A stretch of 64,000 bases of DNA from Eutypella sp. D-1 (Eukaryota; Ascomycota; Sordariomycetes; Xylariales; Diatrypaceae): the NCBI GenBank assembly GCA_023313575.1, contig JAJTTP010000001.1, positions 4,898,001 to 4,962,000 of the forward strand. The letters are read 5' to 3'. Shown in pieces: positions 44,041 to 64,000 of the stretch (position 1 is its first letter; each line of letters starts with the position of its first letter). The translations under genes and the position numbers were made by a program. The notes below the pieces were generated by a model. The model was not told the DNA's origin. It worked only from the letters and a program-made list of their open reading frames with translations, and searched no databases.

Positions 44041-46809
44041 ATGGCCCATTTACAGGTGCTGGGCGAAGGCCTCAGCGCGGGCAAGCAGAGGGCTTTCGAA
44101 GATGCAAGGAAAATGCAAGCGAGCGTGGCGGCAGACTGCAACAAGAGCGGGAAGCCTATACCACCGTATCGCCTCACGGAACTCATCGGCAAAGGAAGCT
44201 TCGGCCGCGTCTACCGCGCGACCGACCTCAAGAACAAGCAACTTGTAGCCGTCAAGATCATCAACGTCGACGAGAGCGACACGGTGAACCCCAAGCTCGC
44301 CGACACCTATAGCGACCTGCTCAAGGAAATCAACGCACTCCAGAGATTAAGCGAGATCAAGGCCCAAAACATCAATCATGTCATCGAAGCGCTTCCCGTT
44401 GGCCACGCCATGTGGATGGTCACTGAGTATTGTGCCGGCGGAAGTGTCGCCACCCTTATGAAACCTACAGCTCCCGGAGGTCTACAGGAGAAGTGGATCA
44501 TCCCTATTCTACGCGAGGTGACCGTCGCCATCCATTGGGTCCACAAGGAAGGAATTATTCATCGAGATATCAAGTGCGCAAACGTATTAGTCACGGAGGT
44601 CGGCAGCGTACAGCTCTGCGATTTCGGAGTAGCCGGCATGATGGAGTCTAAGTTCGACAAGAGATCGACCGTTATAGGAACGCCACATTGGATGGCACCG
44701 GAGCTTTTTGATCAGAACGCCCAGTACGGAACGGAGGTAGATATCTGGGCCTTTGGCTCCATGGTCTTCGAGCTTGCGTCCGGCCTGCCCCCAAACGCTA
44801 GGGCCGGTGTCGGCCTTCCACACCTCGGCGATTTCCTAAGAGAACACATACCACGACTAGAGGGCGATCAGTATTCCGCCCAGCTCAAGGACCTCGTAGC
44901 ATTCTGTCTTGTGGAGAATCCCTCCCAACGTCCTACTATCGAGCAGATCCAGAAACACCCTTACATATATAACACCAGCGCGCAATATCCTACCCGCACC
45001 CTCGCTAACCTCGTCAAAGCCTATAAGCTATGGGAGGATCGCGGCGGCAGCAGAAAGTCGCTGTTTGGACCGGGTGGCGCGCAGGCACCGGCAGATCTGG
45101 ACCTAGATTCTACTTCCCTCGCAGCAGACGAGTGGAACTTCTCTACCACGCTCGCCTTCGATAAGTCGCTGCACGACGATACGGATACTATGTCGGAGGC
45201 TCAGGCGGTGCGCGATGTTTACGGCTCGGCCGTTGATTTCCCCAGCCATAACTTTGGTGGCGACACGGCCAGACCCCCTCCAAAGGGCGGCAATAAGGGT
45301 AGGCGCCGCCCCCCGCCCCAGGCCCTGGCGGCGGTTAAAGCCCCGCTCGAGAAGGTCTTCGACCCGAACACTATATCTAATTACGACGAAAACTCGCGCA
45401 TGTACTACAACCGCGGACCCATGCCCCCGCTCCCTCCCCCCAACGCCCCGGGCCAACCCCCGGCTCGCGCTGCCTCTGCGTCCGACCTTCCGCTGCGGGA
45501 CGACTCGTTGCATTCTACACTTAGGGAGTCTCTTATAGACCTCGATGCGTCTCTCGGCGGTGGTGATCTGGCAACGTTCACGGATGTGGGCACCATTAAG
45601 GCCGGTGGCCCCTCCCAGCAGCAACGGCCCATGCCCAGACCGGGCCCCCGCATGTCTATGGACAACAACTGGTCTTTTGCGGGCGCCACCACAGAGTCGG
45701 CCTCGTCACAGCAGTACCACTACGACAGCGCACCTATGACGCCCGCAGGCGACTTGAATCATGAGCGTCCTGAGATCGAGTGGCAGTGGCCAACGACGAT
45801 ACCACCTGCGCCGTCGTCCAACCCCGATCATTTCGGTCCATCGTCGTACGACGACATGCCCCCGCTGGACACCCCGGGCCGCCCACGCCTCATGCACCAT
45901 CCTACAGACCCGGTTGGTCTACCTTCGCAGGGCTATGATCCTCCGCGAACTGCCACCTCTCTGAGCGCTACTAACGCCGCGTCTACGGCCAACGACCGCA
46001 TGTCTATGGCATCGCTGATCGACCTGGACATGAGCATGCCAGAGCCGGTGACATCCACAATGGCGCCGCCAGCGCCCTACGAACACCTGACGCGCCCGTC
46101 CACGGCGAACTCGGACGCGGCGTCCATAACGGGCTCCGAGAGCGGTGGCGGCGGCAACCCTTTCGAGCTCGAGCGCCACGCCTCCGTCTACGCCCCACTG
46201 TCCATGACTACGCGTGAACCCTCCATCTACGTATCCGAAGACATGGATCTACCCTCGGCGTTCGCCCGCCAGCAGCCGCCTCAACACCAGCAGCAACCGA
46301 GCTACCCGCAGCAACCGAGCCACCAACAGGCGAGCCCGCAACAGCAGCACCAGTACCATTACAGCCACCAGCCGCGCGAACCCTCCCTGTACTACCAGAG
46401 CCCACACCAACTGCACGAGCCGCAGCAGGCGGAATACGTCAACGAAGACGAGGACGAATACGACGAGCAGCGCAGCACGGACGGAGGCGGCGGCGGAGGC
46501 AGTGGCGAAGAGGAAGACGTTGTTGACGAACAGTTCGTGCCTAGACCTGGCCCTGGCCCTGGTCCCGGCCACGGCCATGCCCACGGTGCCTCCGCTCCCA
46601 CATCCTCCTCTACTGGCCCGCTCCCTCCCCGCTCTATGCCGATGCCGCTCCCGCCCCCCGTGGCGCCCCCCTCGGCCGCCGTCATGGAGGGCCGCGCTAC
46701 CCCCGGCGACGTCACCAACGAGATGCGCCGCCTCATCGGCGCCCTCGGCGAGCACCTCTCCCTTATCGGAAACCAAGTCGCTGAGATGGAGCCGCGGAGG
46801 GCAAGATAG
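44041..46809 (+). CDS. Ste20/germinal-centre-type Ser/Thr protein kinase
   Basis: Single exon, 922 residues. The kinase domain lies at about 44-310: glycine loop GKGSFGRV (about 50-57), catalytic lysine in VAVK (about 72), HRDIKCAN with Asp176, DFG at 194-196, and activation segment STVIGTPHWMAPE. The GTPHWMAPE signature and overall pattern are those of Ste20-like GCK kinases; among filamentous fungi it most resembles the MST-1 group, working near the septation and RAM/SIN pathways. That subgroup call is tentative. The remaining 600 residues are low complexity (Pro, Gln, Ser), with poly-Gln near 750-790 and an acidic patch, except for a conserved-looking helix at the very end (DVTNEMRRLIGALGEHLSL) that may bind a partner. 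Confidence 0.88.
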   Translation: MAHLQVLGEGLSAGKQRAFEDARKMQASVAADCNKSGKPIPPYRLTELIGKGSFGRVYRATDLKNKQLVAVKIINVDESDTVNPKLADTYSDLLKEINALQRLSEIKAQNINHVIEALPVGHAMWMVTEYCAGGSVATLMKPTAPGGLQEKWIIPILREVTVAIHWVHKEGIIHRDIKCANVLVTEVGSVQLCDFGVAGMMESKFDKRSTVIGTPHWMAPELFDQNAQYGTEVDIWAFGSMVFELASGLPPNARAGVGLPHLGDFLREHIPRLEGDQYSAQLKDLVAFCLVENPSQRPTIEQIQKHPYIYNTSAQYPTRTLANLVKAYKLWEDRGGSRKSLFGPGGAQAPADLDLDSTSLAADEWNFSTTLAFDKSLHDDTDTMSEAQAVRDVYGSAVDFPSHNFGGDTARPPPKGGNKGRRRPPPQALAAVKAPLEKVFDPNTISNYDENSRMYYNRGPMPPLPPPNAPGQPPARAASASDLPLRDDSLHSTLRESLIDLDASLGGGDLATFTDVGTIKAGGPSQQQRPMPRPGPRMSMDNNWSFAGATTESASSQQYHYDSAPMTPAGDLNHERPEIEWQWPTTIPPAPSSNPDHFGPSSYDDMPPLDTPGRPRLMHHPTDPVGLPSQGYDPPRTATSLSATNAASTANDRMSMASLIDLDMSMPEPVTSTMAPPAPYEHLTRPSTANSDAASITGSESGGGGNPFELERHASVYAPLSMTTREPSIYVSEDMDLPSAFARQQPPQHQQQPSYPQQPSHQQASPQQQHQYHYSHQPREPSLYYQSPHQLHEPQQAEYVNEDEDEYDEQRSTDGGGGGGSGEEEDVVDEQFVPRPGPGPGPGHGHAHGASAPTSSSTGPLPPRSMPMPLPPPVAPPSAAVMEGRATPGDVTNEMRRLIGALGEHLSLIGNQVAEMEPRRAR

Positions 46810-47465
46810 AAGCGATGAGCATGGATAACAAGTGAATCATCAGAATCTGGATGACCGTCCGGTCGACAACGAGCTGACTCGACCGACCTCCGACATCATG
46901 GACCCCCGTATTATGTGATTTTGCTGTTTCTGGCGTTAATGAGGCGCAGGAGGGGCCGAAAGGGAAGGAAAGGGGGACTAATCATAGGCGTTCTTGTTTC
47001 TATTGTGTGTTTAGTTTAAGTATACGAAGGCAATTCGCTCTAATTCTTTATCTTGTTTACTACGCGAGATGCCGTGACCATGCCGTGGTTAAGGGAACCC
47101 ATCCCCTGATACATAATGCAGCGTAAAAGAAAAAAGACCAACGCTAATTCAGCTGAAAGTGAACTGTTCGGCATCAAAAAGCAACAATTATTTTGTCACT
47201 CCCTCGAATTCACAGCAGAGTAAAGTAAATAAAAATTGAAGCCGCCCCTTTAAGTTGGCTTCAGGGCTAAGTAGGTAGGTTATCGATAAGTGAATAATAT
47301 CGATCGGGGCGCCCCTTTAAAGCCGTAGCCCAGAACCGCCGGACCCGGTTTGTCTAGACTCTGCAAACCCTGCGGCATTTTTTTTTCCCCTCCAATCCAA
47401 CGACAATGGCAGGCAGCGGATAGATAGATAAGACTGAACAAGGCAAGCCACACTCAACAATCACA
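46810..47465. other. Intergenic between kinase and tRNA
   Basis: About 650 bp, kinase 3' flank then tRNA upstream region. Contains a GCGCCCCTTTAAAG-like repeated word (47243 and 47308 areas) and a T8 run near 47380. No gene seen. Confidence 0.5.
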
Positions 47466-47574
47466 GTCTTCGTGGCTCAGTTGGTTAGAGCGCCGGTCTC
47501 ATATTTACATCAATATGATCCATCCAGTAGGTTGGGATATCCGGAGATCGCCAGTTCGATCCTGGCCGAGGACA
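47466..47574 (+). tRNA. tRNA-Met (CAT), elongator type, with intron
   Basis: The 7-bp acceptor stem GTCTTCG pairs with CGAGGAC (one G-T wobble), with discriminator A at 47574. D arm is GCTC/GAGC, anticodon loop CTCATA with anticodon CAT, T arm GCCAG-TTCGATC-CTGGC. A 35-nt intron (about 47504-47538) interrupts one base 3' of the anticodon, the standard position. The T loop TTCGATC indicates elongator rather than initiator tRNA-Met. Mature length is about 74 nt before CCA. Confidence 0.92.
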
Positions 47575-47582
47575 GCTTCAAC

Positions 47583-47589
47583 TTTTTTT
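47583..47589 (+). terminator. RNA polymerase III T-run terminator
   Basis: Seven T on the non-template strand begin 9 bp after the tRNA end, the usual Pol III stop signal. Confidence 0.8.
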
Positions 47590-47861
47590 GCTCGTTTCTC
47601 CTTTCACATAACTTTCTTTTTTTGTTTTTCTCGGTTCACTTCGATATTTGGGGAGGCAAGGGAAAAAAAGAGGCGTAGACCGACATAGTTGTATACAAGT
47701 TAATAAGCATAGTAATGAGATTTATTTTAATATATTGTTCAGAGCGACGTCTAGCAGGTACGACATTATGTTTCCAGTTTATTCATTGCGTCCTGGAAGG
47801 CTTTCGGGATTATACGTTGTACTACATTATCTACCAGTACTCTGCCATTGCGACCAGGATC

Positions 47862-50800
47862 TCAGGTAAACCCGATAAGGTCACCCATAAGCAGGGCCTG
47901 ATACTTGTCGACGGCTTCGCGTAGGCGGACCAAGACGCCGGCGGCCAGCATTTTGACCTCGTTCTCCTCACCGGCGCCGACGGCCCCTTCGCCGTCGCCG
48001 CCGCGCGTCCCCTCGAACACTGCGGCCACCCACTCGGTGGTCTCGACGACCTCGCGCCCGTGCCGCTCGCAGAGCCCGCGCATGTCGTTCTCGTTGACGT
48101 CGAGCAGCGCTACGAGGGCGAAGAGCAGCGCGCGCGCAACGCCCATGTCCGGTAGCGATGCGCCTGTGCCTGCGCTACCGACCCCCGACCCTGCCCCCGC
48201 TCCCGAGAGAGCGGGTCCTCGCGCTCCGAGGACCAGGTCCCAGAGCTCGGACGTCATCTGAGGCAGGGCGAGGGTCGAGGGTCCCGCGGCGTGCAGCAGC
48301 AGACCCAGCGTCCGTAGGTAGAGCGCCAGTAGTTCGGGTTGGAAGAGTACGCCGCGGCCGCGCGATGATGCGTATAGCGCGGCCTGGAATCGCGACGTTA
48401 ACGGGAAGAAAAAGGACTCACTGATCAACGAGGCTGTCGTGTTGGGAATCGCGCGGACGCCGGGCTTTTTCTTCCGGGCCTTGGTGACCGATCCCGCTCC
48501 TGTTCCCTTTCCGGCCCGGTTGTCCTGTTGTAGCCGTGACGTGAAGGACGATATTTTCAGTGCGTCGGGACCCGTCACTGCGTCGGCCGCCTCGGCCGCC
48601 ATAGGTGCGAGGAAGGCTTGTGAGAGGGACTGTGCTATGTTATCTATAGCGTTAGGAGGCAGAGCCTTGAGCTTGGAAGCTGAGGATGAGGGGAGGCCGG
48701 GCGCGGAAGGCAAGGCGTAGTGCTTCTCGACTTTGGCAGGGAGCCTCTTGGAAGGAAAGGCCGCTGCATCTGCATATTGGGATACTTCAAAGCCCGCAAT
48801 CTCGCGAGCGCTGAGGCCGAGGACGATGAGAATCGAGGACCGCTGGGATAGCGAGTAGTCGCCGTCGAAGAACGTTTTGGCGAACCACTGAGCCATCTTC
48901 TTGGGCTGCGCTATGACCACGGCTATCATTCCCTGGAGACGCAATTCGTGGAAATTCTCAAGGTCGTAATTGTCCTGGAGACCGACGAGTAGAGTTGCTA
49001 GTTCCTCTGCGTGGGAAGCAACCTCAGTTCCGTATGCCGCCTTGCGGCGGATCAAGACCGGCGCGGTTGTCAGCGCCAGTTTCTGCTTATCGTAGTTCTC
49101 CGTGTCGCGTAAATATGTGATAAGATCCCTAATGTAAACAGGTGCTTTGGGCTTATCCCGGTTGATCAAGGTAGGATCATCGTCAGAGTCCTCTGCGTCG
49201 GAATCCGGTTTAGCATACGGAACTAGATCGGAATCTTCCTCCTCTTCGTCCTCAACCTCTTCAATGATGAAGCCCGTTTTCGGCGCAGCACTTGCAGGCT
49301 GCGGTGCGGGTTTTGGGTTTGAATTTGTCTGTTTCGTCTTCTTGGCCGGCTTCGAATTGCCTCCAGATTGACGGAGGGGATCCAAGGGCCCGACCTTGTC
49401 GGAGACATTCACAAGTGACTTGTACCAGTTAGCGTCGTCTGTGTTCATTTCGTCCATTTTGAAATCGAGCTTCTTGTCAGCGCCGTGAACAAGACCTGAC
49501 AGCGCTTCGCCAACCACCATGCCCAGAAAGCGGGCCCGGAGCTGCGTTGCAGTGAGGCGGTTGGATATGGCATTCATGTATGTGCCAGACCGCGTCAAGA
49601 TGGTGAGTTTGATGGGCGCAAGTCTGTGGACATATCCTGCGCTCAGCAGGAGCACCTGAGCATGTGCTAGAACACCATGCGGTTAGTGATGCCAACTAGC
49701 TGGGATTGGTACCTTTCTCACCTTCTTGTTGGACTATGGGAGTATGTCTCATGTAAAGTAGGTCGCCGAACTGGCTCATACTCTTCTCAAGTACCGTTAT
49801 GAGTGCCTCCTTATCATCTGCAAGGACAGCCAGGGCGGCCCGTCTGATACCGCACCCGTCTCCTATTCCAGCTCCAGGTGAGGCGGTCAGCCAGCTCGAA
49901 AGATGACCTTTTCGTACTTCATCCTTCCCGATGAGGGCTTTTAGAGCACCAGCAGCGGCCCATATGGCAGGGTAATCTTCTGTCGCGTCGTTGGTATCTA
50001 ATGCACCCAAATATGTATCGGCCAGAAATTTAAGTATAACTAGTAGCATCTTTCGCTGTTCAAGGGAAGGCAGGCAGTCAAATAGCTTTCCGAATGCTTC
50101 AGGATTTTTGCTATTTTCCACGAGGAGGTTTGTGAAGAGTTTCTTGGTAATCCTTTCTGCGCATGATACTTAGCTTGGCTTGGTCCCAGGCGGGACGTAT
50201 GCTACTTACCAGAGTGTGCCAGACGTGTTGCACGCGCTATAATGTCTGCGCACAGCTTCAGTTCATCATCATCGACACCACCTTTCACCCATTCAATGAG
50301 ACTGCGACCAAGCCAGTCAATGTAGGCCTTGGGATCAGCCTGCCATGTTTCATCATGAGCTCTATCTGCCTGGCGCAGGACATCTTCAGCCTCCGCCGAG
50401 AGGGAAACAATCTTCCCATTGGTGAATAGTGCAATGAACTCCTGCCGAAGAGGCCGGGCACGAGCGGGGTTGTCAAGATTCCTCACTGGAGCCCACACAC
50501 GTCTGATCGCATCTTCAGATTGTAGAATTCGTGACAATGCGTCAAGGATAAAGCTGATGTTGAAGGACGTATGTGATTGCTTCAGTCCCTTGGGGTCGGG
50601 TTTCGCCTCTCTAAGCAATGCTCGCAGATAAGTGAGCAGGGAGTTGATTCCAGGGATACTTCGTAAACAGGTCAACAGGGTTCCAAGATCACTTGTCTGC
50701 TGGCCGGCAGATCCTTCGGACAACACCGTCCAATAATTCGGAATGATCTCGGTGGTGAGGACATGGACCAACTGAGCGGCTTGGGGCCCCGGTCTCCGGA

Positions 50801-51035
50801 TATCGAAGAGGTGCTTTCCCTGGATCCCCCTGCGAAGATACCCCAAGACCGATAGTAAAGCTTCGTAGTCTGGTTGGTTTTTGAGAACCTCCAAGGCCTC
50901 CTCGGGTGACGACCCTTTAAATTCGATAACAGGCTGTTCAGGCGCAGAGCTAGCGGGCTCCGAGGGACGTAATAACGGTTCGTCCTTAACTGGATCTCGG
51001 TAACTCCGGCTTACCTGGGTAAGGAGCCCATCCAT
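47862..51035 (-). CDS. tel2: Telomere length regulation protein Tel2
   Basis: Modelled as complement(join(47862..49666,49722..50156,50210..51035)), 1021 residues with two short consensus introns (53 and 55 bp). Tel2 is the scaffold of the TTT complex (Tel2-Tti1-Tti2), which with Hsp90 matures PI3K-like kinases such as Tor, ATM/Tel1 and ATR/Mec1. The protein is alpha-helical and HEAT-like throughout. The central Telomere_reg-2 region is recognisable (APVYIRDLITYLRDTENYDKQKLALTTAPVLIRRK). Before it lies an acidic Ser/Asp-rich linker (EEVEDEEEEDSDLVPY) where CK2 phosphorylation recruits the R2TP chaperone in other species. The C-terminus has a Gly/Ala-rich insert near residue 910. Confidence 0.9.
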
Positions 51036-51729
51036 GCCGTCAACAGCTAGCCGTGATATGTTATATTTAGGCTGGGATCTCCTGTGTAGGTGGATAGACA
51101 GTTGCCCTGGAGTTGGGCCAATCTCTAGTGGGAGTTTCCTACTATTTAGTTGATCACGGTCGAGTTAGTTGTACGAGATCGATGCTGGGTTCTCCCATAT
51201 TGAAGTGCTTTTCCCGAGAATTCTCGTCCATTAATGAGAGAATAATCCGATAGAGGCTTCGTAGTATGGACTTTGTATATAGAGGCACGAAGTAGTTGAC
51301 AATTACTTGGACCCCAAGCTTTTGACAGGCTCAGTTGGTTCAGGGTATGTATATGCGTATACCGAGTTGATACTTACATAGGTACATACATGTACATAAT
51401 GGGACATCCTAACACAATAGGGCTGACCAATCGTCATGCTACATCTTGGGCATCCCACTTCGCGCGCCCCGATAAGCGCTTATCAGCAATAGAGTGACGT
51501 CTCTTACCTTACTTAAGTACCTACTAAGTACATTGTATTGGAAGTTACATAGACTCAAAGTCAACAAAGCAACCTGTAACCGAGCAGCTCAACCTAAGCT
51601 CTTGTAACCATCCAGCTACAAAGCTACTCCCAAAACTACCTCTACTCCTGCACGTGCACCTACACGTTCAGGCAGGAATAAATTGACGAAAATAATTTGA
51701 CAGAAAGAAACCGAGAGGATCAAATCGAG
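51036..51729. promoter_or_regulatory. Divergent promoter, tel2 and uba3
   Basis: About 690 bp between head-to-head genes. A CACGTG E-box lies near 51654, about 75 bp before the uba3 ATG. AT-rich middle with TACATA/TACCTA words. No gene seen. Confidence 0.4.
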
Positions 51730-53146
51730 ATGGACGTCGCCGCTACAGATATTAATGCCGCCTCTAGGTGGCAATACCTAGATAGACTACGCAAAACTCG
51801 CGGCCCCTTCAACGAGAATACCGACATCAGCGAGGAAAATCTCGCGAATATTGACCGCGCCAAGATCCTCGTGATCGGTGCTGGAGGCCTGGGCTGCGAG
51901 ATCCTCAAGAACATCGCCCTGACCGGCTTCAAGGACATCCATGTCATAGACATGGACACGATCGACATATCCAACCTCAACCGCCAGTTTCTCTTCCGGA
52001 AATCCGATGTTGGCAAGTACAAGGCCGAGGTCGCCGCCGCCTTCGTCGAGCAGAGGGTTGAGGGGGTCAAGATCACCCCGCATAACTGTCGGATACAAGA
52101 CTTTGACGACGACTTCTATATGCAGTTCCAGATGGTTATCTGTGGACTAGACAGTATCGAGGCCCGGAGGTGGATCAATTCTACACTTGTCAGCTTATAT
52201 GAGGAGGATAACCCGGATTCCCTGAAGCCATTGATAGATGGTGGCACTGAAGGTATGATTCCTCCCCCCAGCGTTACCTACTCCGATGATTGTATGAGCG
52301 AGTGAGAAAGAGAGTGAGAGAGAGTGTGTAAGAGAAACAGAGAGAGAAAGAGGACCCCTCCGCTAACTTCTATTAGGCTTCAAGGGCCAGACTCGAGTCG
52401 TATTCCCCACCATGTCAGCATGTATTGAGTGCCAACTCGACCTGTATACCCCGCGAGCCGCCGTGCCCCTCTGCACCCTTGCCACTATTCCACGCCAACC
52501 TGAACACTGCATCGAATGGGCACACATTATAGCTTGGGAACAAGAGAAGCCGTTTCCGAACCTAGACAAGGACGACCCCGAACACATCACATGGTTATAC
52601 CAGAAGGCGTCGGCGCGGGCTGAAGAGTTCGGCATCGGCGGCGTGACCTACTCACTCACGCAAGGGGTGGTCAAGAATATCATCCCGGCCATTGCCTCGA
52701 CCAACGCTATTATTGCCGCGAGCTGCTGTAATGAGGCGCTGAAGATCGCTCTGGACATGCGCTCTGCCCTCGGCTTCCGTGAAAACTACATGATGTATAC
52801 CGGTGACGAAGCCATCTACACACACGTCTACGAGAACGAGCGCAAGGAAGACTGCCCTGTGTGCGGCGATGCTGCCAAGCCGCTCACGGTGGATCCCGAC
52901 TGGACCTTGAGAGAGCTCCTCGACTCTTTCGCTACTAAGGCCGACCTGCAGCTCAAGAAGCCTTCTGTCACTGCCCACCGCAAGACGCTTTATATGCAGT
53001 CACCGCCCAGCATCGAGGAGCAGACCCGCCCGAACCTCGACCTAAAGCTGCGCGACGAACTCAGCCTGCAGCACGGCCAGGAGATCGCCGTCACGGACCC
53101 AGCATTCCCGAAGCTGCTCTTTACATTCTATCTCCAGTTTTCGTGA
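51730..53146 (+). CDS. uba3: NEDD8-activating enzyme E1 catalytic subunit Uba3
   Basis: Modelled as join(51730..52252,52377..53146), 430 residues; the intron is GTATGA...TTAG and the join gives GGTEGFKGQTRVVFP. The frame is open before 51730 but has no ATG. Uba3 adenylates NEDD8 and takes it as a thioester in the Uba3-Ula1/NAE1 heterodimer, then passes it to Ubc12 for cullin neddylation. Seen here: nucleotide loop VIGAGGLGCE (residues 50-55), the DISNLNRQFLFR block, catalytic Cys207 in AVPLCTLATIPR, and zinc ligands at Cys190, Cys193 and the later CPVC. The intron is purine-rich with GA repeats. A coding-like segment in the +1 frame follows the stop to 53255, so the exact C-terminus is less certain. 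Confidence 0.92.
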
Positions 53147-55560: not shown

Positions 55561-56490
55561 ATGCCTGCAGCCACAAAGTGGCTATCGACTGTACTTCTGC
55601 CGATGTCCGCCGTTGCCCTTGGACGATTCGTAGGCGACCTATCGGACCCCAACGACACTTTTCAGGACACTCTTCAATCGGAGGAGTGGCCAGATGGTCC
55701 CACATCCATAATCGAAAATAGTCGAAAATGCTTTCTTTACGATAGTGCTGTAGACCGGCACTGGGGCCTCTCTGTCGCCCTGACTGCCGTTTTGGGCTCG
55801 ACCTTGTCCGTACAGAAAGAGGAAGTCTCCACTATCAAGGCCGATTACGTCACCACTCGACAGCTCTCGAATACTGTCAAACATTTTGAGAAGGCCTGCC
55901 AAAACGAAGATGTACGGGAATGGCTTGAACAACAGTGGCGGGGACGGCGAAAGGCTTATATAGTCACCGGGGTTATGACTCTTCTTAACGCACATGTCAC
56001 GTTGCGCCGGGGGAAAAAGATGGAGACAAGCCAAGGGGTCGGCGTCCCAGGGTCGGTCATACTTCTTGCAGCTACGCAGGGCGCTGTGCCTACATTGGGT
56101 GGAATTGAGAGTGTACTCGACTCTGAGGTCACGGTAGCATGGGGTACTACGGGACGGGTGGCGAGCAGCTTTGCGGCTCCTGGAGAAAGCATCATGGCCG
56201 TTCAGTATCGACAAGTGGATTTCTCATGGTTCCGGAAACCATCACCAAAAACCGTTACACTGTCAAGTCGCTCAAAGTGGAAGACATATCTGGGTAGCCG
56301 TGGCGAGGATTCGGATGACACGAGCGATGAGGACGAAAGCTTCAGTGAGGATATGAGCGACGCCGACGCGGATCTTGTCACTTTGCAAGCTGTTGTTGGT
56401 GGCGACATCAGCTCTAGTGATCTGGGCGACTATAATATCTGTGAAGACTACGCCTTGGATGGTGTTGAGGAAATATGGTGCGTCTCTTAG
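55561..56490 (+). CDS. Candidate fungal gasdermin-like pore-forming protein
   Basis: Single exon, 309 residues. The start (MPAATKWLSTVLLPMS, then VGDLSDPND) and middle resemble the gasdermin N-terminal pore domain: an amphipathic first helix followed by an Asp/Asn turn; a helix before a strand (about 97-148, with RKAYIVTGVMTLLNAHVTL); and a late strand after a Pro/Gly turn (AAPGESIMAVQYRQVDF, about 206-221). The core of about 240 residues is typical of fungal gasdermins, which stay inactive until a protease trims the C-terminal tail. Here the tail (248-309) is very acidic and follows LGSRGEDSDD. A caspase-like gene and a TPR-CHAT gene sit beside it, the expected activators. Codon use is less GC-biased than in the housekeeping genes. 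Family assignment is inference from pattern and context. Confidence 0.55.
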   Translation: MPAATKWLSTVLLPMSAVALGRFVGDLSDPNDTFQDTLQSEEWPDGPTSIIENSRKCFLYDSAVDRHWGLSVALTAVLGSTLSVQKEEVSTIKADYVTTRQLSNTVKHFEKACQNEDVREWLEQQWRGRRKAYIVTGVMTLLNAHVTLRRGKKMETSQGVGVPGSVILLAATQGAVPTLGGIESVLDSEVTVAWGTTGRVASSFAAPGESIMAVQYRQVDFSWFRKPSPKTVTLSSRSKWKTYLGSRGEDSDDTSDEDESFSEDMSDADADLVTLQAVVGGDISSSDLGDYNICEDYALDGVEEIWCVS

Positions 56491-56949
56491 GTTGTTGCCC
56501 CTGGTATAGGTATCCCTGGAACACACTATCATATATACTTCAATGTATCGTCGGCCACTAAAAGTTGCTGTTGGCTATGGGTGGACGGTGTAACGAAGCC
56601 GTCACCACAGAGTCTTGGTTGCAGATAACAGAAGATGCAGAAGGGATAATTACTTAGATTGATCGCTGGCTACATAGCTAAAGGAGAAGCTATCTAAGAC
56701 GGGATAGGCGAGGAAGGTGTCGTCGCCAAGTGACCTTATTGTTGTTATTATCCTGGAATGGGTGGTTTGTAGCCTATGATTATCAATACTGGGAAAGTCC
56801 GGACAGAATACCGTAGTGCAACTTGAATCCGACAAGAAGAGAGAGAGGTGGAGGGGTCGTACGCCCCTGTTGCCCTTAAACATGTTCAATCTGTGTGTCT
56901 CCTTATCATGCCCTCCATCACGAAGGCCGTAGTATCAACCGCAACAAAC
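56491..56949. other. Convergent intergenic, gasdermin-like and caspase genes
   Basis: 459 bp between convergent stop codons. Nothing recognisable. Confidence 0.6.
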
Positions 56950-59142
56950 CTAGTCCTTGCCGGGCTCGCCCTTGGTACGTATTTTGAACGTCAGAGTAAT
57001 CCATAAATCTTCATTCGACACATCTTTACGGACAAACCCTCGGCCTGGCATCCCTATGCTGTCAAGGAGTTCATCCAGGCTGTCATCCCCCCGTTCCACA
57101 GTCATCTCGGTACTCTCGTTAAGGTCCGGCATCTCGACAGACCTGAAAGTATTGATTGAAAGTTGTTTGTCAGAGATGAAAATCTTGGCGTAGTCGATGT
57201 AATCCGTAGATTGGTCCCAACTCGTGGGTAAGGGTTCTGCTAGCCAGCTCACAGTCTTACTCTGATTACCAGATATTCGGTCGAACTCTTCATTCTGGGG
57301 GTAGAACAATTGAGCCCCCCAAAATGGACTGAAGTTGAGACCTGCGATACTCAATGACTTATCGGCCGTGTTGTGAATTTCAACTGTGTTTTCGCCGACA
57401 ACGACATCAATTGGCTCGTAATAATTCGGCCGATCCCCATGGGGAATGCAATGCGGCGTAATGTCAGTCCCGTTAATGACGATTTTCAAACAATTCCGAA
57501 TCCATTCGGGATGGAACGGGTTCTGAATTTTCATGAGACTTTCGAACCGAGCCATGTGTAACAGACGAGAGTAGAAAATCTCCACGTCGTCGCTGGATGG
57601 GAATCGTGGGATAGGTTTCCTGTCGTTGCTATTATCCGTGAGCCGATACAGCAGGTCATCGCTCACGGAGATATTATAGGGAGCTGAGCTCTCCTCAAAA
57701 TCGACCATAGCGTGATCAGAGTCATCGGAAAGGTTTTCTTGCCTGACGAATTTATGGAGGTCATTGTATTTGTCAGCGATCTCTCTGTTGACACTCCTAG
57801 GTGTCTTGTCTAGGCTGATCAGGGTTTTGTCGATCTTGTACTTGAGCAGAACAGCCCGAGAACCGATTGGTGTGTCACATGGCTTCGTAATCCACTTTGT
57901 AAGAGATCTGTCTGCGTAGACAGCGGTGATCTTGACTTGCGGTCTCTTTGATTGGTCTCCGGGGTCTGTCTCATGCCATGGGTATATGGCATACGTCGAG
58001 CCTCTCGTGACCCCTTGGGCTAATCCCTCTGACAGAACGGGACAACCGTAACAGGTAGAGACGACTAAGAGTGACCGCATGTAGGTGCCTTCAGTATCTC
58101 TCAACCAATGGCGGTCTCTGTTCCCGGCGAAAATCGGAGTCTGGGACTGCCTAGTTCTGAATGTAGCAATGAAATTGTCATGAACTTGCCCGAGGGTAGG
58201 TATTATCTTCTCCTTTCGGCAGGAATCAAGGAACTCCAGCAAGGTGTGAGTGTAAAGTCCACAGTACTTGCCACCATGCCTCGTCTCCATAGACTTTTCA
58301 TCTTCACAACACGAGCCGAATAGATCATGCTTCACTGGGAGCAAAAGGCCAGTATAACCTTCCCGCCGTCCAGGGTGATCTCGAGCCAAGACACCTTGAA
58401 GTGACTGCAAGAGCTCGGGATCATCCTGGGGAAGAGGCATCGACTCTCCCCATTTACCCTGTGTCTCTGAGCGGCTGGCACACCTTGGCGCGGATCCAGT
58501 TATTCCTCTTGAGCTCACGTCTTCCATGTCGTCTTCAGGGGAGTCTTCCGTGTCTGAATCATCGGAATCATCTTCATCTGTCTCTCCTCTGGACACACTG
58601 CCTGCATGACAACAGTCGCAGAAGACAGACACACGAGCCCCCTTGCGAGTAATTCCTTGGAGGAGTATGGCCAATTCGATGTCTCTGAGAGGCCTCCTGG
58701 TGCTCTTGATGTCGTAAGGGGCAATCGACTCATCAATACCATCTGCCCCTTTGATTTCTGGGTACTGGGTGTCGACTCGAATCCCGTGACAAGAGAAATG
58801 AACATGGACAACATCCCCCCTGTTCTTGTTAACTGCTCTTTCAACTTTTTGAAATGCGGAGACGATGTTCTCGTATGTCGGGAGCTCGTAATCTGGTTCT
58901 GGCGGGATTTTTGTCCCGTCATTCGGGAATGACGAGGTAAGCTGAAAGATCTGTGGATCCTCGAAGGAAGGCTCGTTTTTGATATACTCGCGGAGACGAA
59001 TCACGTCTGTAACTGCCCCCTTGAGATTAGGGATTTTGGGGCGAGGGGTATTGTTCTTGACAGGTGCATTTCGAGGAGCATAGAATCCAACTCCTACAAG
59101 GATAAAGAAGAGCTTCGGCTTGGTGGATTGAGTTGATGACAT
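56950..59142 (-). CDS. Caspase-fold (C14-like) cysteine protease
   Basis: Single exon, 730 residues from the ATG at 59142 (MSSTQSTKPK); the frame extends upstream without an ATG. The N-terminal caspase domain begins with the first strand LFFILVGVGFY and GAVTDVIRLREYI. The catalytic dyad is visible: His119 in HVHFSCHG and Cys178 in VFCDCCHAG. Directly after the active site comes a 30-residue acidic loop (185-212) flanked by SRG on both sides, where a p20/p10-type processing linker would lie. The second half of the fold continues to about residue 345 (GLYTHTLLEFLDSC). The remaining 385 residues have no recognised domain and look beta-rich near the end. It may cleave the convergent gasdermin-like product; metacaspase-type enzymes prefer Arg or Lys. 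Role inferred. Confidence 0.82.
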   Translation of the reverse strand: MSSTQSTKPKLFFILVGVGFYAPRNAPVKNNTPRPKIPNLKGAVTDVIRLREYIKNEPSFEDPQIFQLTSSFPNDGTKIPPEPDYELPTYENIVSAFQKVERAVNKNRGDVVHVHFSCHGIRVDTQYPEIKGADGIDESIAPYDIKSTRRPLRDIELAILLQGITRKGARVSVFCDCCHAGSVSRGETDEDDSDDSDTEDSPEDDMEDVSSRGITGSAPRCASRSETQGKWGESMPLPQDDPELLQSLQGVLARDHPGRREGYTGLLLPVKHDLFGSCCEDEKSMETRHGGKYCGLYTHTLLEFLDSCRKEKIIPTLGQVHDNFIATFRTRQSQTPIFAGNRDRHWLRDTEGTYMRSLLVVSTCYGCPVLSEGLAQGVTRGSTYAIYPWHETDPGDQSKRPQVKITAVYADRSLTKWITKPCDTPIGSRAVLLKYKIDKTLISLDKTPRSVNREIADKYNDLHKFVRQENLSDDSDHAMVDFEESSAPYNISVSDDLLYRLTDNSNDRKPIPRFPSSDDVEIFYSRLLHMARFESLMKIQNPFHPEWIRNCLKIVINGTDITPHCIPHGDRPNYYEPIDVVVGENTVEIHNTADKSLSIAGLNFSPFWGAQLFYPQNEEFDRISGNQSKTVSWLAEPLPTSWDQSTDYIDYAKIFISDKQLSINTFRSVEMPDLNESTEMTVERGDDSLDELLDSIGMPGRGFVRKDVSNEDLWITLTFKIRTKGEPGKD

Positions 59143-61423
59143 GATGAGTAGATATAATATGCCTTGAACTAGGCAATTGATGTTCCCGACAACAACAATT
59201 ATTAAGGACAAAGAAGAATGTACGAGAAATGGAGGGAGCTCGGGATGTGGTTTTAAACTTTGTGTATGTCAGAGTACATGCAGCAATGCAAGATAGAGAC
59301 CAGGCGTTACTTTTAGGTAGATGGACAGTATGAGAATTGATGGAATAAGTATTGAACAATGACCCTTTCTGAACATGAAGGGGCCAAAGGCTCTTACTTA
59401 TAGGAAAGTCCAGTTCACCACAGCATATAGATAATGGCGGGGATTTCAGTAGAGCCCTTGATCTACTATTATTGGAGAACGAGTTTGATACTACCTAGTT
59501 CACGAGTAAGGCTGTAGAAGGAATAGATGAGGGGGGTCAGGGATTGGTGAGTGTCGGTAAGCCACGAGATACCCGTGGACATGTTCTGTCAACAGCCATG
59601 ACCCCTCATGAAAACTTGGGTTGCAACCTTTGTAGCCACCGGCAGTGCTCCAGACCCTGTTCTGCTTATCCGAGGCTCACACAACAGGTTTCTCATGTTG
59701 ACCGGTGAGAATACTCAGTTCTGACCGGATGATCTAGATAATATGGGGCAGGAAGTAAGGTCGCTAGCACATTATGGCCTTGGGTTGGGTCTTTGGTATA
59801 GCCCATGTATGCATGTCTACCTAGGTGTTGTGTACTGACCTGGTGCTTACATTCTCCTGCCGAAGGACACCGTATTTTTCCGCTAGAACAGGCTACCGCC
59901 ACAATAGTCGGAATGGCGGGGTTGCTGTGATGAACTATATATCAGGTCGCCACGGAAGCACAAAGATTACCAATATGTTATAATATGATGTCGTTTCAAG
60001 ACCATAAGTTGGCCGGTAGATGCGTAAATATCCTGTGTGACTGCTGCAATATGAAACGAGGCTGCCAATATTACCACCCACCTTCTATCTATTGTGCATA
60101 TGTTCTCTCACCTGATACACGGAGGCGGCCCAAAACAAGGATTTCGGTACATGTTGCTGAGCTGAGAGCAGCCGAAGATAATCTGATTTGACTGATGCTA
60201 TGGGACTGCATGAAATGTCATTCATCGAGATTCATGATAGGTAGCCAAGCGGGTGCTGTACCCGTAGCATAGCATGATGCATCCATGGCTCCGCCACCCT
60301 TTTTGTCTCGAGTCGGGATAGATGAAGGATAAGAGTCCCCCGCGTATACTTGCCCTAAACAACATATTCATTGATATTATTCAGGTTTTACTTGGACAGT
60401 TTTAATTTCTGGTCGATGCCGCTTATCTAGGTAAAGCTGCAGATTCAGATGCATAAAATCAGTACATATACATATGCGCCACACGAAGTCTACGCCGAGA
60501 TAATGATTATATTGATGTAGACCGTAGTTTGCTTGGCTATGCAGTGAAGTACACCACTCCCTCGCTCACCGCATATTCCACAATGGTCACGGGATTAAAG
60601 GACGTGTGTATTGTTAGAGCTTATCTTTCTGTGACTTTGTTGAAGCTGGCTCTATTACATTTAACTTGTGACTGAAGGAACTCGGCTTTAAAATGGAGGT
60701 AAGACTTACTATATATATTGCGATCTGTTCATAGCTGTCTCCTAGTCCCTTTTGGCAGTTTGCTCTCATTAATTTACTCTGACTGCAGCCCAAAACTATC
60801 CAGATAACCGCCTCAATAAATCATTACCTGGTGATGATTACTGTCGATCAACTTGAATCATATCAGAATGGCTAAGGTTTGTAACTCGTTAACGTCCTAT
60901 ATATACTAATCGATTTGACAAATTGGTCTATCCGCAACGCACCGATTTGTGTCAAGATCTGGGTTTCCGCTTTCATTTTTGCCTCTGCATGCCCGACTAG
61001 TGCATTTGAGTCACGAAAATGCAACAATCTAGGGACATGGGGATGGTTGACTGATTGCCGTTCATATATGTGAGGCTCTTTCCCCAACGATTGGCATTGT
61101 CTTGCTCGGGATAATAGTATAAAATTCAGGAGAGACTTAAAATCCAAGCCAATGCGCAACTAGACTGAGAAGATATGATTCATACAACAGCCAGAAATAC
61201 AACAAGACAATGCTAGGTAATATCTGGAGAAGGCTATCTTTCTACTGAGAATGGCGGATAAACATGCTACGAATCCCACCTAAAGCCATCAACAATCTTA
61301 CGCACGGTAGCTCTCACTGTGCTACGAACTTTAGGGGAATGAACTCGACTTCCAAATGCAGCAGCTGCACAGACAAAATCTTTGCGCGATGTCAGTCATC
61401 AATATATCGATAGACCTGCGATA
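59143..61423. other. Divergent intergenic, caspase and TPR-CHAT genes
   Basis: About 2.3 kb. Promoter of the caspase gene and, probably, leader or further 5' exons of the TPR-CHAT gene. An in-frame stop at 61340-61342 bounds the TPR-CHAT frame; an ATG at 61339 in another frame encodes a short Cys-motif peptide (KCSSCTDKIFARC). ACCTAGGT occurs at 59819-59826. No other gene seen. Confidence 0.4.
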
Positions 61424-64000
61424 ATGAATAGTCCTAGCATGATCCTGAGAGAAAGCTACAAGAACAGTTGTCAGGATATCGATAGCCTCAGGGATGCTAC
61501 CATGCTGACACGGGATACAATCAACAATTGCTCCGGCTCCGACCACCAGAAACTATCACTCATGACTGGACTTGCAACCAATCTTGGCCTTATGTACGAA
61601 GCGGCTAAAGAAGCGAAATATCTCACCGAGGCTCTCGATTACATCAGCCAAGCCGTTCGGATAACAGCGGATGACGACCCAATGGAGCCGGCTAGATTGT
61701 GCAATGCTGGGAACAACATTGTTGAACGGTACAATCTCTTGAACGAGTCTAATGAGTTTAAACAGTCGCTGGAATACAGAACGCAGGCTTCGACTTTGAT
61801 TCGAAAGTCAACGAATGAGAGCAACTATTTGCAGATAATCAACTCTTTATTAATTCGTCTGCGTCAGTACTCAGAACGGACTAGTGATAGGCTTAGCCTT
61901 GATGGATCGATCAAATTGCTGGAACAACTTGCCCAGCGTACGCAAGGTGGCCATCGAATGTGGATCACGCATGTCAACAACTTCTGCAACGGGCTACTCG
62001 CTAGATACGACAACGATGGTAATTCAGAGGACCTTCGAATGGCTACTGAAAATATTCAGTTTGCATATCTTGAGGCACTCAAATGTGAAGATGTGGAATT
62101 ATTAGCACCGATACTGCATACATTATGTATCGCCATCAGATCTAGATATCGCATCACAGGTGCCTTAGGCGACTTGGAAGAGGCGGCTAAACGAGCTGAT
62201 CAGGCACTGGAAATCATCCCAAGGGGACATACGGAGTACGCCTCCGCCATGCAAAACAAATCTGTAACATTCGCAATGATATTTCAAAGACTGCACAGAA
62301 AGCCCGATCTTGAGACAGCTATCTCCTGTGGCGTAGAAGCCGCAAAAAATACTACACAAAAATATCGACAAGCGGTCATTTACTCAAACTTGGGGGTATT
62401 ATATGGAATTCGGTTCGAACACTTTGGAAGAAATGCAAAAGATCTTGAGAAGGCCATCGAATGCTGCCGGGTTTCTACTGATCTCGACATCCTTGGCTTT
62501 AGTAGCTCTGTCAATCTCGCCAACTGGTTAATCAGCTCATACCGATATTCTAGAAACTCGCCTTGCCAAGAATCAGTACTGAAACAGCAAAATCATCTAA
62601 ATGAGGCTGTCAGACTGATGGAAACAGCCTTTGAGATAGCAGAAACAACCCCGACTCACCCTGATAGATCCAAAGTGGTCCTCGCACTTGCTGAGGCTTT
62701 GGAGACAAGATACAGAAGCCCTCCTCGACACGGCGGCGGAAAGACATTGGACCGAGCTCGCGCAAAGGAAATCTTAGAGCAGATGATGACGGATTCGAAC
62801 ACATCACCCCCAATTGACCGGATGAAGGTTGCTCTTAACCTCGCTGATATTGCCTCACTCGAAGGAAACTGGGCCGGTGTGCACAAGGCTACGGCAACCG
62901 CCGTGGGCCTCCTTCCACTTCTTAGCCCTCGGTGTGTGAACCAAAGCGACCAACAATACCACTTATCACTGTTTCCTGGTCTCGCCAGCAAAGCCGCAGC
63001 GTCGGCAATTGAAATAGGCTGCAGCCCTGAGGAGGCGTTGCGGCTTTTAGAGCAAGGCCGTTGCGTCATGTCAGGGCACCGCTTCGAACAACGCATCGAC
63101 GTTAGCCACCTTCATACCAAATATCCAAATCTGTCTAAGAAGTACGAGAACTTATGCTACGTTCTGGACTCCCCACAACCAAGTAATATAAAGGAGTATA
63201 CTGGGGATAGCCTCGCTCGGTCACAGCGACACCGCGCTGAGGCGGAACTATATGCACTCATTGCCGAAATCCGGAAGAAACCAGGGTTCGCGAGTTTCCC
63301 CAATATGATTGAACCAAAGTCACTGCTAAACAGAAGCTCGCTAAATGCAATAATCGTCATTAACATTTCTTTTCGATCAGGCGCCTTTCTGGTCCAAGAG
63401 AATCAAGTACGCTACTTGGACCTGCCCGGCTTAGCGACGGAAGACTCTATTAGTGAGATGACTGCTCGGTTTACCGCTAAGTTTCAAGTCAACTCAAGCT
63501 ATATGGATCTATACAAAGAGCTAGAATGGCTGTGGGATACAGCGGTAGGTCCTATTCTGGATGCACTTAACTTGACCAATCCTTATTCTGGAGGTGAATG
63601 GCCACGCGTGTGCTGGGTACCTACGGGGCCGCTTTCTCGCCTACCGTTGCATGCAGCCGGATATCACCATGACCAGTCGCAGCGAACGGCACTGGACTGT
63701 GTGATTTCTTCATACAGCCCATCTATAAAGTTTTTGCAGTATACGGCAGGCAATAGATTGACCCGGCACAGACAAGTGGCTCCGCATCACCACAGGATCC
63801 TCATAGGCAGTATGACGCGCACACCAGGGATGCCATCATTGCCTTGCGCTGGCAAGGAGGCAAAAGCCGTAGGCCGGCTGTTACACTCTAAAATATGCAT
63901 TAACGAGATTGAATCTCCGACGCGGTCATATCTAGTTAACGAGCTCCAAAACTGTACCATGTTCCACTTCGCTGGTCATGGCAAGGCCGACGCGGTAGAT
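61424..64000 (+). CDS. TPR-CHAT protease, 3' end beyond the window
   Basis: A frame stays open from 61343 to the last base; the first in-frame ATG is 61424 (MNSPSMILRES), giving 859 residues without a stop. Residues 30-650 are helical repeats of the TPR type, for example KLSLMTGLATNLGLMYEAAK, YLTEALDYISQAVRI, DLEEAAKRADQALEI and YSNLGVLYGIRFEHFG. A CHAT (caspase-like) domain follows: YLDLPGL, then RVCWVPTGPLSRLPLHAAGY, and MFHFAGHGKAD with catalytic His852. The catalytic cysteine lies beyond the window. Fungal TPR-CHAT proteins often sit beside death effectors as sensors/activators. Extra 5' exons are possible, so the start is uncertain. Many A/T-ending codons contrast with the housekeeping block. 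Confidence 0.85.
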   Translation, partial: MNSPSMILRESYKNSCQDIDSLRDATMLTRDTINNCSGSDHQKLSLMTGLATNLGLMYEAAKEAKYLTEALDYISQAVRITADDDPMEPARLCNAGNNIVERYNLLNESNEFKQSLEYRTQASTLIRKSTNESNYLQIINSLLIRLRQYSERTSDRLSLDGSIKLLEQLAQRTQGGHRMWITHVNNFCNGLLARYDNDGNSEDLRMATENIQFAYLEALKCEDVELLAPILHTLCIAIRSRYRITGALGDLEEAAKRADQALEIIPRGHTEYASAMQNKSVTFAMIFQRLHRKPDLETAISCGVEAAKNTTQKYRQAVIYSNLGVLYGIRFEHFGRNAKDLEKAIECCRVSTDLDILGFSSSVNLANWLISSYRYSRNSPCQESVLKQQNHLNEAVRLMETAFEIAETTPTHPDRSKVVLALAEALETRYRSPPRHGGGKTLDRARAKEILEQMMTDSNTSPPIDRMKVALNLADIASLEGNWAGVHKATATAVGLLPLLSPRCVNQSDQQYHLSLFPGLASKAAASAIEIGCSPEEALRLLEQGRCVMSGHRFEQRIDVSHLHTKYPNLSKKYENLCYVLDSPQPSNIKEYTGDSLARSQRHRAEAELYALIAEIRKKPGFASFPNMIEPKSLLNRSSLNAIIVINISFRSGAFLVQENQVRYLDLPGLATEDSISEMTARFTAKFQVNSSYMDLYKELEWLWDTAVGPILDALNLTNPYSGGEWPRVCWVPTGPLSRLPLHAAGYHHDQSQRTALDCVISSYSPSIKFLQYTAGNRLTRHRQVAPHHHRILIGSMTRTPGMPSLPCAGKEAKAVGRLLHSKICINEIESPTRSYLVNELQNCTMFHFAGHGKADAVD

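Follow-up and report, generated by a model that had tools for sequence, protein, structure and literature searches.

Could a fungal pore-forming protein be controlled by two different caspase-clan proteases encoded beside it? The question is raised by a locus at ~4.95 Mb on contig C1 of the Eutypella sp. D-1 assembly (48.5 Mb, 72 contigs), where a metacaspase-like C14 protease gene sits between a gasdermin-like gene and a TPR-CHAT protease gene. The stretch of DNA analysed here, hereafter the window, is the 64-kb segment of C1 from 4,898,001 to 4,962,000, and coordinates without a contig or locus name refer to it. With some reserve, we favour the reading that the three genes are a conserved gasdermin cell-death module of filamentous ascomycetes, activated by its own linked proteases, a reading that leaves the cut site and the order of action open.

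Identity of the three genes

The genes and their catalytic codons are located as follows.

55561..56490, + strand: gasdermin-like gene, one open frame of 309 amino acids (aa)
56950..59142, − strand: metacaspase-like C14 protease gene, 730 aa, ATG at 59142
58786..58788, − strand: codon of the catalytic His119, invariant in 6/6 aligned proteins
58609..58611, − strand: codon of the catalytic Cys178, the second Cys of DCCHAG, invariant in 6/6 aligned proteins
61424..64000, running on to C1:4,962,456, + strand: TPR-CHAT protease gene, 1010 aa when counted from its first in-frame ATG
63977..63979, + strand: codon of the catalytic His of CHAT; His and Cys are kept in 7/7 aligned proteins

The 309-aa protein almost certainly has a gasdermin fold. 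Eight relatives were found at E<=10, with identities of 47-97%; six of the eight share its start position, the other two start later, and one is a full-length gasdermin at 97% identity. Two structure models were built from different alignments, and searches with these predicted structures returned gasdermin entries at ranks 1-28 and 1-27 in Foldseek and likewise at entries 1-23 in VIA-align, followed by cholesterol-dependent cytolysins, a fold-related group. For the complex entries 8gtj, 7wjq and 6vie, the chains were taken as gasdermin from their titles and lengths. The gasdermin assignment made in the first-pass annotation is therefore supported, though the models themselves are of moderate confidence (predicted local distance difference test, pLDDT, 53.5 and 59.6). 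The strand blocks placed there at about 132-148 and 206-221 fit the predicted strands E132-150 and E200-225; the proposed amphipathic N-terminus, by contrast, is modelled at that moderate confidence as a strand (E6-14), not as an amphipathic helix.

Among the 12 matches of the profile search, RCD-1-2 came first (E 0.021) and HET-Q1 had an E of 1.8, with none below 1e-3. The Pfam gasdermin model PF04598 had no match at E<=1 in the 309-aa protein and none in the genome, but this null is uninformative because the model matched none of the 14 control genomes either. Other identities were sought in the PDB with phmmer at E<=10, which gave two matches, a V-type ATP synthase beta chain (E 0.48) and a histidine kinase (E 1.8), and in Pfam, where SegE_GIY-YIG alone appeared, under its cut-off (E 0.18); all three were rejected.

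Non-exhaustive searches with gasdermin queries recovered the window gene, a broken paralog on contig C12 and one match at E 0.85. An in-frame TGA, together with a shift of frame near the tail, interrupts this paralog, which lies near 722,274 (L014:9154-9780, − strand). It adjoins a HET-domain gene (L015:867-2456, E 7.8e-29), and an S8 subtilase match lies ~13 kb away (C12:735,679).

The C14 protein matches the caspase domain PF00656 with 47.3 bits, against a curated cut-off of 21.4, and its ten PDB matches at E<=1 consist of seven metacaspases, one uncharacterized bacterial protein (GSU0716) and two unrelated weak matches. A convergent caspase-fold protease with intact His119 and Cys178 had been claimed; the gene lies on the minus strand, and both residues read as described. 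In an alignment of six proteins (the window caspase, four orthologs and a paralog on contig C13), two Asp residues are invariant in 6/6; by motif and by eye they pair with Asp95 and Asp211 of TbMCA2, while the five linked proteins have Ala at the position that, again by eye, corresponds to Cys92 of TbMCA2. Passages of PMC4357240 name these TbMCA2 residues and state that metacaspases take Arg and Lys at P1.

The C13 paralog is a second fungal-type C14 gene of 719 aa (L016:7649-9808, − strand), with a 167-aa open reading frame ~4 kb away (L017:4181-4684, + strand). That frame looked gasdermin-like by eye; it had no match in the PDB or Pfam and profile comparison probabilities of 0.42 and 0.17, and a second caspase-gasdermin pair on C13 was rejected.

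In the third protein, the CHAT domain scores 117.8 bits over positions 3-288 of 289 (curated cut-off 24). TPR models match at E 0.0009-0.009, under their cut-offs, and in the PDB nothing but Csx29, a CRISPR-associated TPR-CHAT protein (E 0.00091), matches at E<=0.001. The divergent TPR-CHAT frame described earlier lies on the plus strand with its His inside the window, and the catalytic dyad is kept; the Cys, at about 64106, lies ~100 bases beyond the window end. Five of six aligned relatives have a longer N-terminus, which bears on the following stretch.

61224..61345, + strand: stretch weakly matching (tblastn) the relatives' extra N-terminus, with stop codons

Judging from these letters, TPR-CHAT may start later here or may have lost an N-terminal (first) repeat. 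The gene appears to be still maintained, because the remaining frame is long and open.

Linkage in this and related genomes

C14 domains occur at five places in the genome (seven matches, as two of the genes are each hit in two pieces) and CHAT domains at two places in 48.5 Mb, one of them with stops; from these counts, the chance that both families lie within 10 kb of one given point is ~2e-6. This low probability, together with the recurrence of the linkage in relatives, indicates that the clustering exceeds chance. The three adjacent genes first reported for the window are confirmed, and their neighbourhood is unlikely to be accidental.

For the comparison with relatives, a query joining pieces of the caspase and CHAT proteins was used; 7,995 candidates were scored and the best 120 of 400 matches listed, from which we used the named top rows and four caspase-covering rows, and placement on the same contig was inferred from equal contig sizes. 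In Cladobotryum mycophilum, the CHAT (PT974_03677), C14 (PT974_03678) and gasdermin (PT974_03679) genes carry consecutive tags in the same order as in the window, and in A. nitens (Annulohypoxylon) all three share a 785,777-bp contig. X. arbuscula has the gasdermin and CHAT on one contig (324,266 bp), with no caspase among the matches listed; X. bambusicola has CHAT (RRF57_003334) and caspase (RRF57_003335), with no gasdermin among the matches listed. The named relatives are Sordariomycetes, and the linkage spans two orders, Cladobotryum belonging to Hypocreales and Annulohypoxylon to Xylariales. A check across related genomes, proposed with the original observation, therefore finds the three genes linked in both. 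Very probably, the gasdermin, C14 and CHAT proteins work together.

Both C14 and CHAT genes lie within 10 kb of the gasdermin gene. A pairing of the HET-Q type, with an S8 protease, was rejected for this locus: the genome has 43 S8 matches, but they leave C1 empty from 0.87 to 5.38 Mb, a span that takes in the locus.

On one flank, the cluster is preceded by a gene whose ThiF and E2_bind domains are spread over two open frames (51697-53146) and which we read as UBA3-type; past the window end come genes for a MYND-finger protein and for a subunit of RNA polymerase. The three cluster genes (55561-64000) have a third-position G+C content of 0.50-0.54, as against 0.69-0.72 in three other window genes (44041-53146); origin, expression or mutational history might account for the difference. 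Elsewhere in the genome, CHAT is matched only at C34:3072519-3073091, in a sequence that has two internal stops and looks decayed.

The acidic tail and a shared motif

Three further features bear on how the gasdermin could be activated.

56296..56487, + strand: acidic C-terminal tail, residues 246-309 (21 D/E, 1 K/R)
56296..56307, + strand: candidate cut site S246-R247-G248-E249 at the tail start; cleavage here is predicted
58522..58593, − strand: SRGE with its acidic run, caspase residues 184-207, including Arg185

The acidic tail claimed for the 309-aa protein is borne out from residue 246 onward, and the calculated isoelectric point (pI) falls from 8.85 for residues 1-249 to 4.05 for residues 250-309. 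Seven of the eight relatives have such a tail; the record of the eighth (P0008) ends ahead of it and was excluded from the tail count. The tail opens with LGS-R247-GE, and SRG followed by E/G and an acidic run is present in 8/8 tailed gasdermin orthologs. The caspase carries a similar element: in 5/5 gasdermin-linked orthologs, SRG or TRG is followed by D/E/G and an acidic run, its Arg standing seven residues past the catalytic Cys. None of the other four C14 places in the genome has the motif with an acidic run. The C13 paralog reads NRGDT, and 7 of the 30 residues that follow are D/E; the window caspase has 15 there and the remaining places 3. Across 304 open frames (57,469 aa, from the window and nine genome loci) the motif occurs eight times, with an acidic run in just the two window proteins, and 141 scanned proteins yielded one further case of the combination. 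That case is P0066, a CHAT protein of Fusarium zealandicum with SRGD and the acidic pattern at residue 1050, near its C-terminus, perhaps another processed site. Sections of PMC4357240 place the processing site of animal caspases ~14 residues after beta4, so that a cut in the SRGE loop of the caspase is plausible by position.

From these features we infer the following course. The short acidic tail would hold the basic, beta-rich gasdermin core inactive. The TPR-CHAT protein would sense an upstream signal, whereupon the C14 protease would become active and cut the gasdermin behind its conserved Arg247 (LGSR|GE), so that an acidic piece of 62 residues is released; probably the C14 protease would also process itself at the matching SRGE site after its catalytic Cys. 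The freed basic core would insert into membranes, form pores and kill the cell, with self/non-self or antiviral defence as the likeliest role of the module. No simpler course would give all three genes a part. The steps differ in probability. Activation of the gasdermin by one of the linked proteases is likely, while a cut at Arg247 by the C14 enzyme itself has somewhat less than an even chance. The full two-protease cascade, in which the TPR-CHAT sensor triggers C14 and a single cleavage code, (S/T)R|G followed by acidic residues, serves both self-processing and gasdermin release, is unlikely as a complete account.

Alternative accounts and known systems

Several observations call for caution. 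Half of the four relatives show a pair alone, as the matches listed include no caspase for X. arbuscula and no gasdermin for X. bambusicola. The SRG motif common to caspase and gasdermin was spotted post hoc; its R-G pair recurs in the C13 paralog, and in the nine gasdermin relatives that are further removed the matching tail position is basic (by eye), so that the motif may have a structural reason. In the main alternative account, TPR-CHAT alone senses and cuts the gasdermin; the C14 protein would then act as a second executioner in parallel, regulate CHAT, or serve as a brake by degrading the pore protein. Reviews describe a CHAT protease as the activator in the two-gene cluster of Podospora anserina, and the X. 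arbuscula pair would suit the same arrangement. We nevertheless regard this account as rather unlikely, since the caspase adjoins the gasdermin in Cladobotryum and shares its contig in Annulohypoxylon, and since the SRG-acidic motif is common to caspase and gasdermin, not CHAT.

Other alternatives are far less probable. Stop codons upstream of TPR-CHAT and the broken state of the sole paralog found would suit a module that is ancestral and real yet decaying or silent in this genome, but the three main frames run without a stop for 309, 730 and 1010 codons, the catalytic residues are kept, and one relative retains a full-length gasdermin of 97% identity; decay is improbable. Cleavage-free action by pairing of variants, with the proteases belonging to another pathway, takes its appeal from RCD-1 of Neurospora, the closest solved structure and, in the part of a review that treats it, not activated by cleavage; it is decidedly improbable given a tail present in every relative whose record reaches that far and protease linkage that recurs. 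Least probable of all is that the 309-aa protein is not a gasdermin: the want of a significant Pfam match, the low pLDDT and the weak sequence scores speak for this, whereas two models from different alignments rank gasdermins first and cytolysins next, and RCD-1 and HET-Q1 come up independently in the sequence profile search.

A gasdermin module activated by linked proteases has several known counterparts. According to excerpts of PMC12881547, PMC10197012 and PMC10989679, ~80% or more of fungal gasdermin genes adjoin protease genes, 17-19% have CHAT partners, and in a two-gene cluster of Podospora anserina a TPR-CHAT protein activates the gasdermin (Clave et al. 2022). There, as here, the gasdermin stands beside a TPR-CHAT protein taken as sensor and activator, but in Eutypella a separate C14 gene, kept in relatives, lies between the two. 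The HET-Q1/HET-Q2 system of the same fungus shares the short C-terminal tail, of which HET-Q1 loses ~40 residues to its linked protease (passages of PMC10989679; 62 are proposed here), and HET-Q1 appears in our profile search; however, HET-Q2 is an S8 subtilase, of which none was found near this locus, and the cut proposed here follows Arg, not Phe. RCD-1 of Neurospora crassa is activated by variant pairing according to a review, whereas the protein here has an acidic tail and linked proteases.

In bacteria, C14 or CHAT proteases are encoded beside gasdermins as well (PMC9612521, section 5), although in prokaryotic operons, and no case that combines a separate C14 gene with a TPR-CHAT gene was found in the parts consulted. 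The animal chain leading to gasdermin D likewise runs from a receptor to a caspase-clan protease and a cleaved pore protein; the Eutypella gasdermin differs in having no homologous C-terminal domain, and its protease is of the metacaspase-like kind, predicted to take a basic residue instead of Asp at P1. Two-protease systems reportedly exist in bacteria, as Wein et al. are said to have described in 2025. In literature titles and abstract starts, no cluster was found in which a fungal gasdermin is accompanied by a CHAT protease as well as a separate C14 caspase, and the neighbourhood tables of Clave et al. 2022 may list cases. The cell-death switch proposed for this locus may employ two proteases where one is usual.

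To our knowledge, little has been established about which death-pathway proteins are the natural targets of metacaspase-like proteases in fungi. A review calls it an open question how the sensors in control of fungal gasdermins are themselves activated. The conserved gasdermin/C14/CHAT set, with its specific predicted cut site, makes a fungal two-step protease relay directly testable in yeast. If true, such a relay would amount to a pyroptosis-like cascade in a microbial eukaryote, matching the animal chain of receptor, caspase and gasdermin D in compact form and with basic-residue cleavage.

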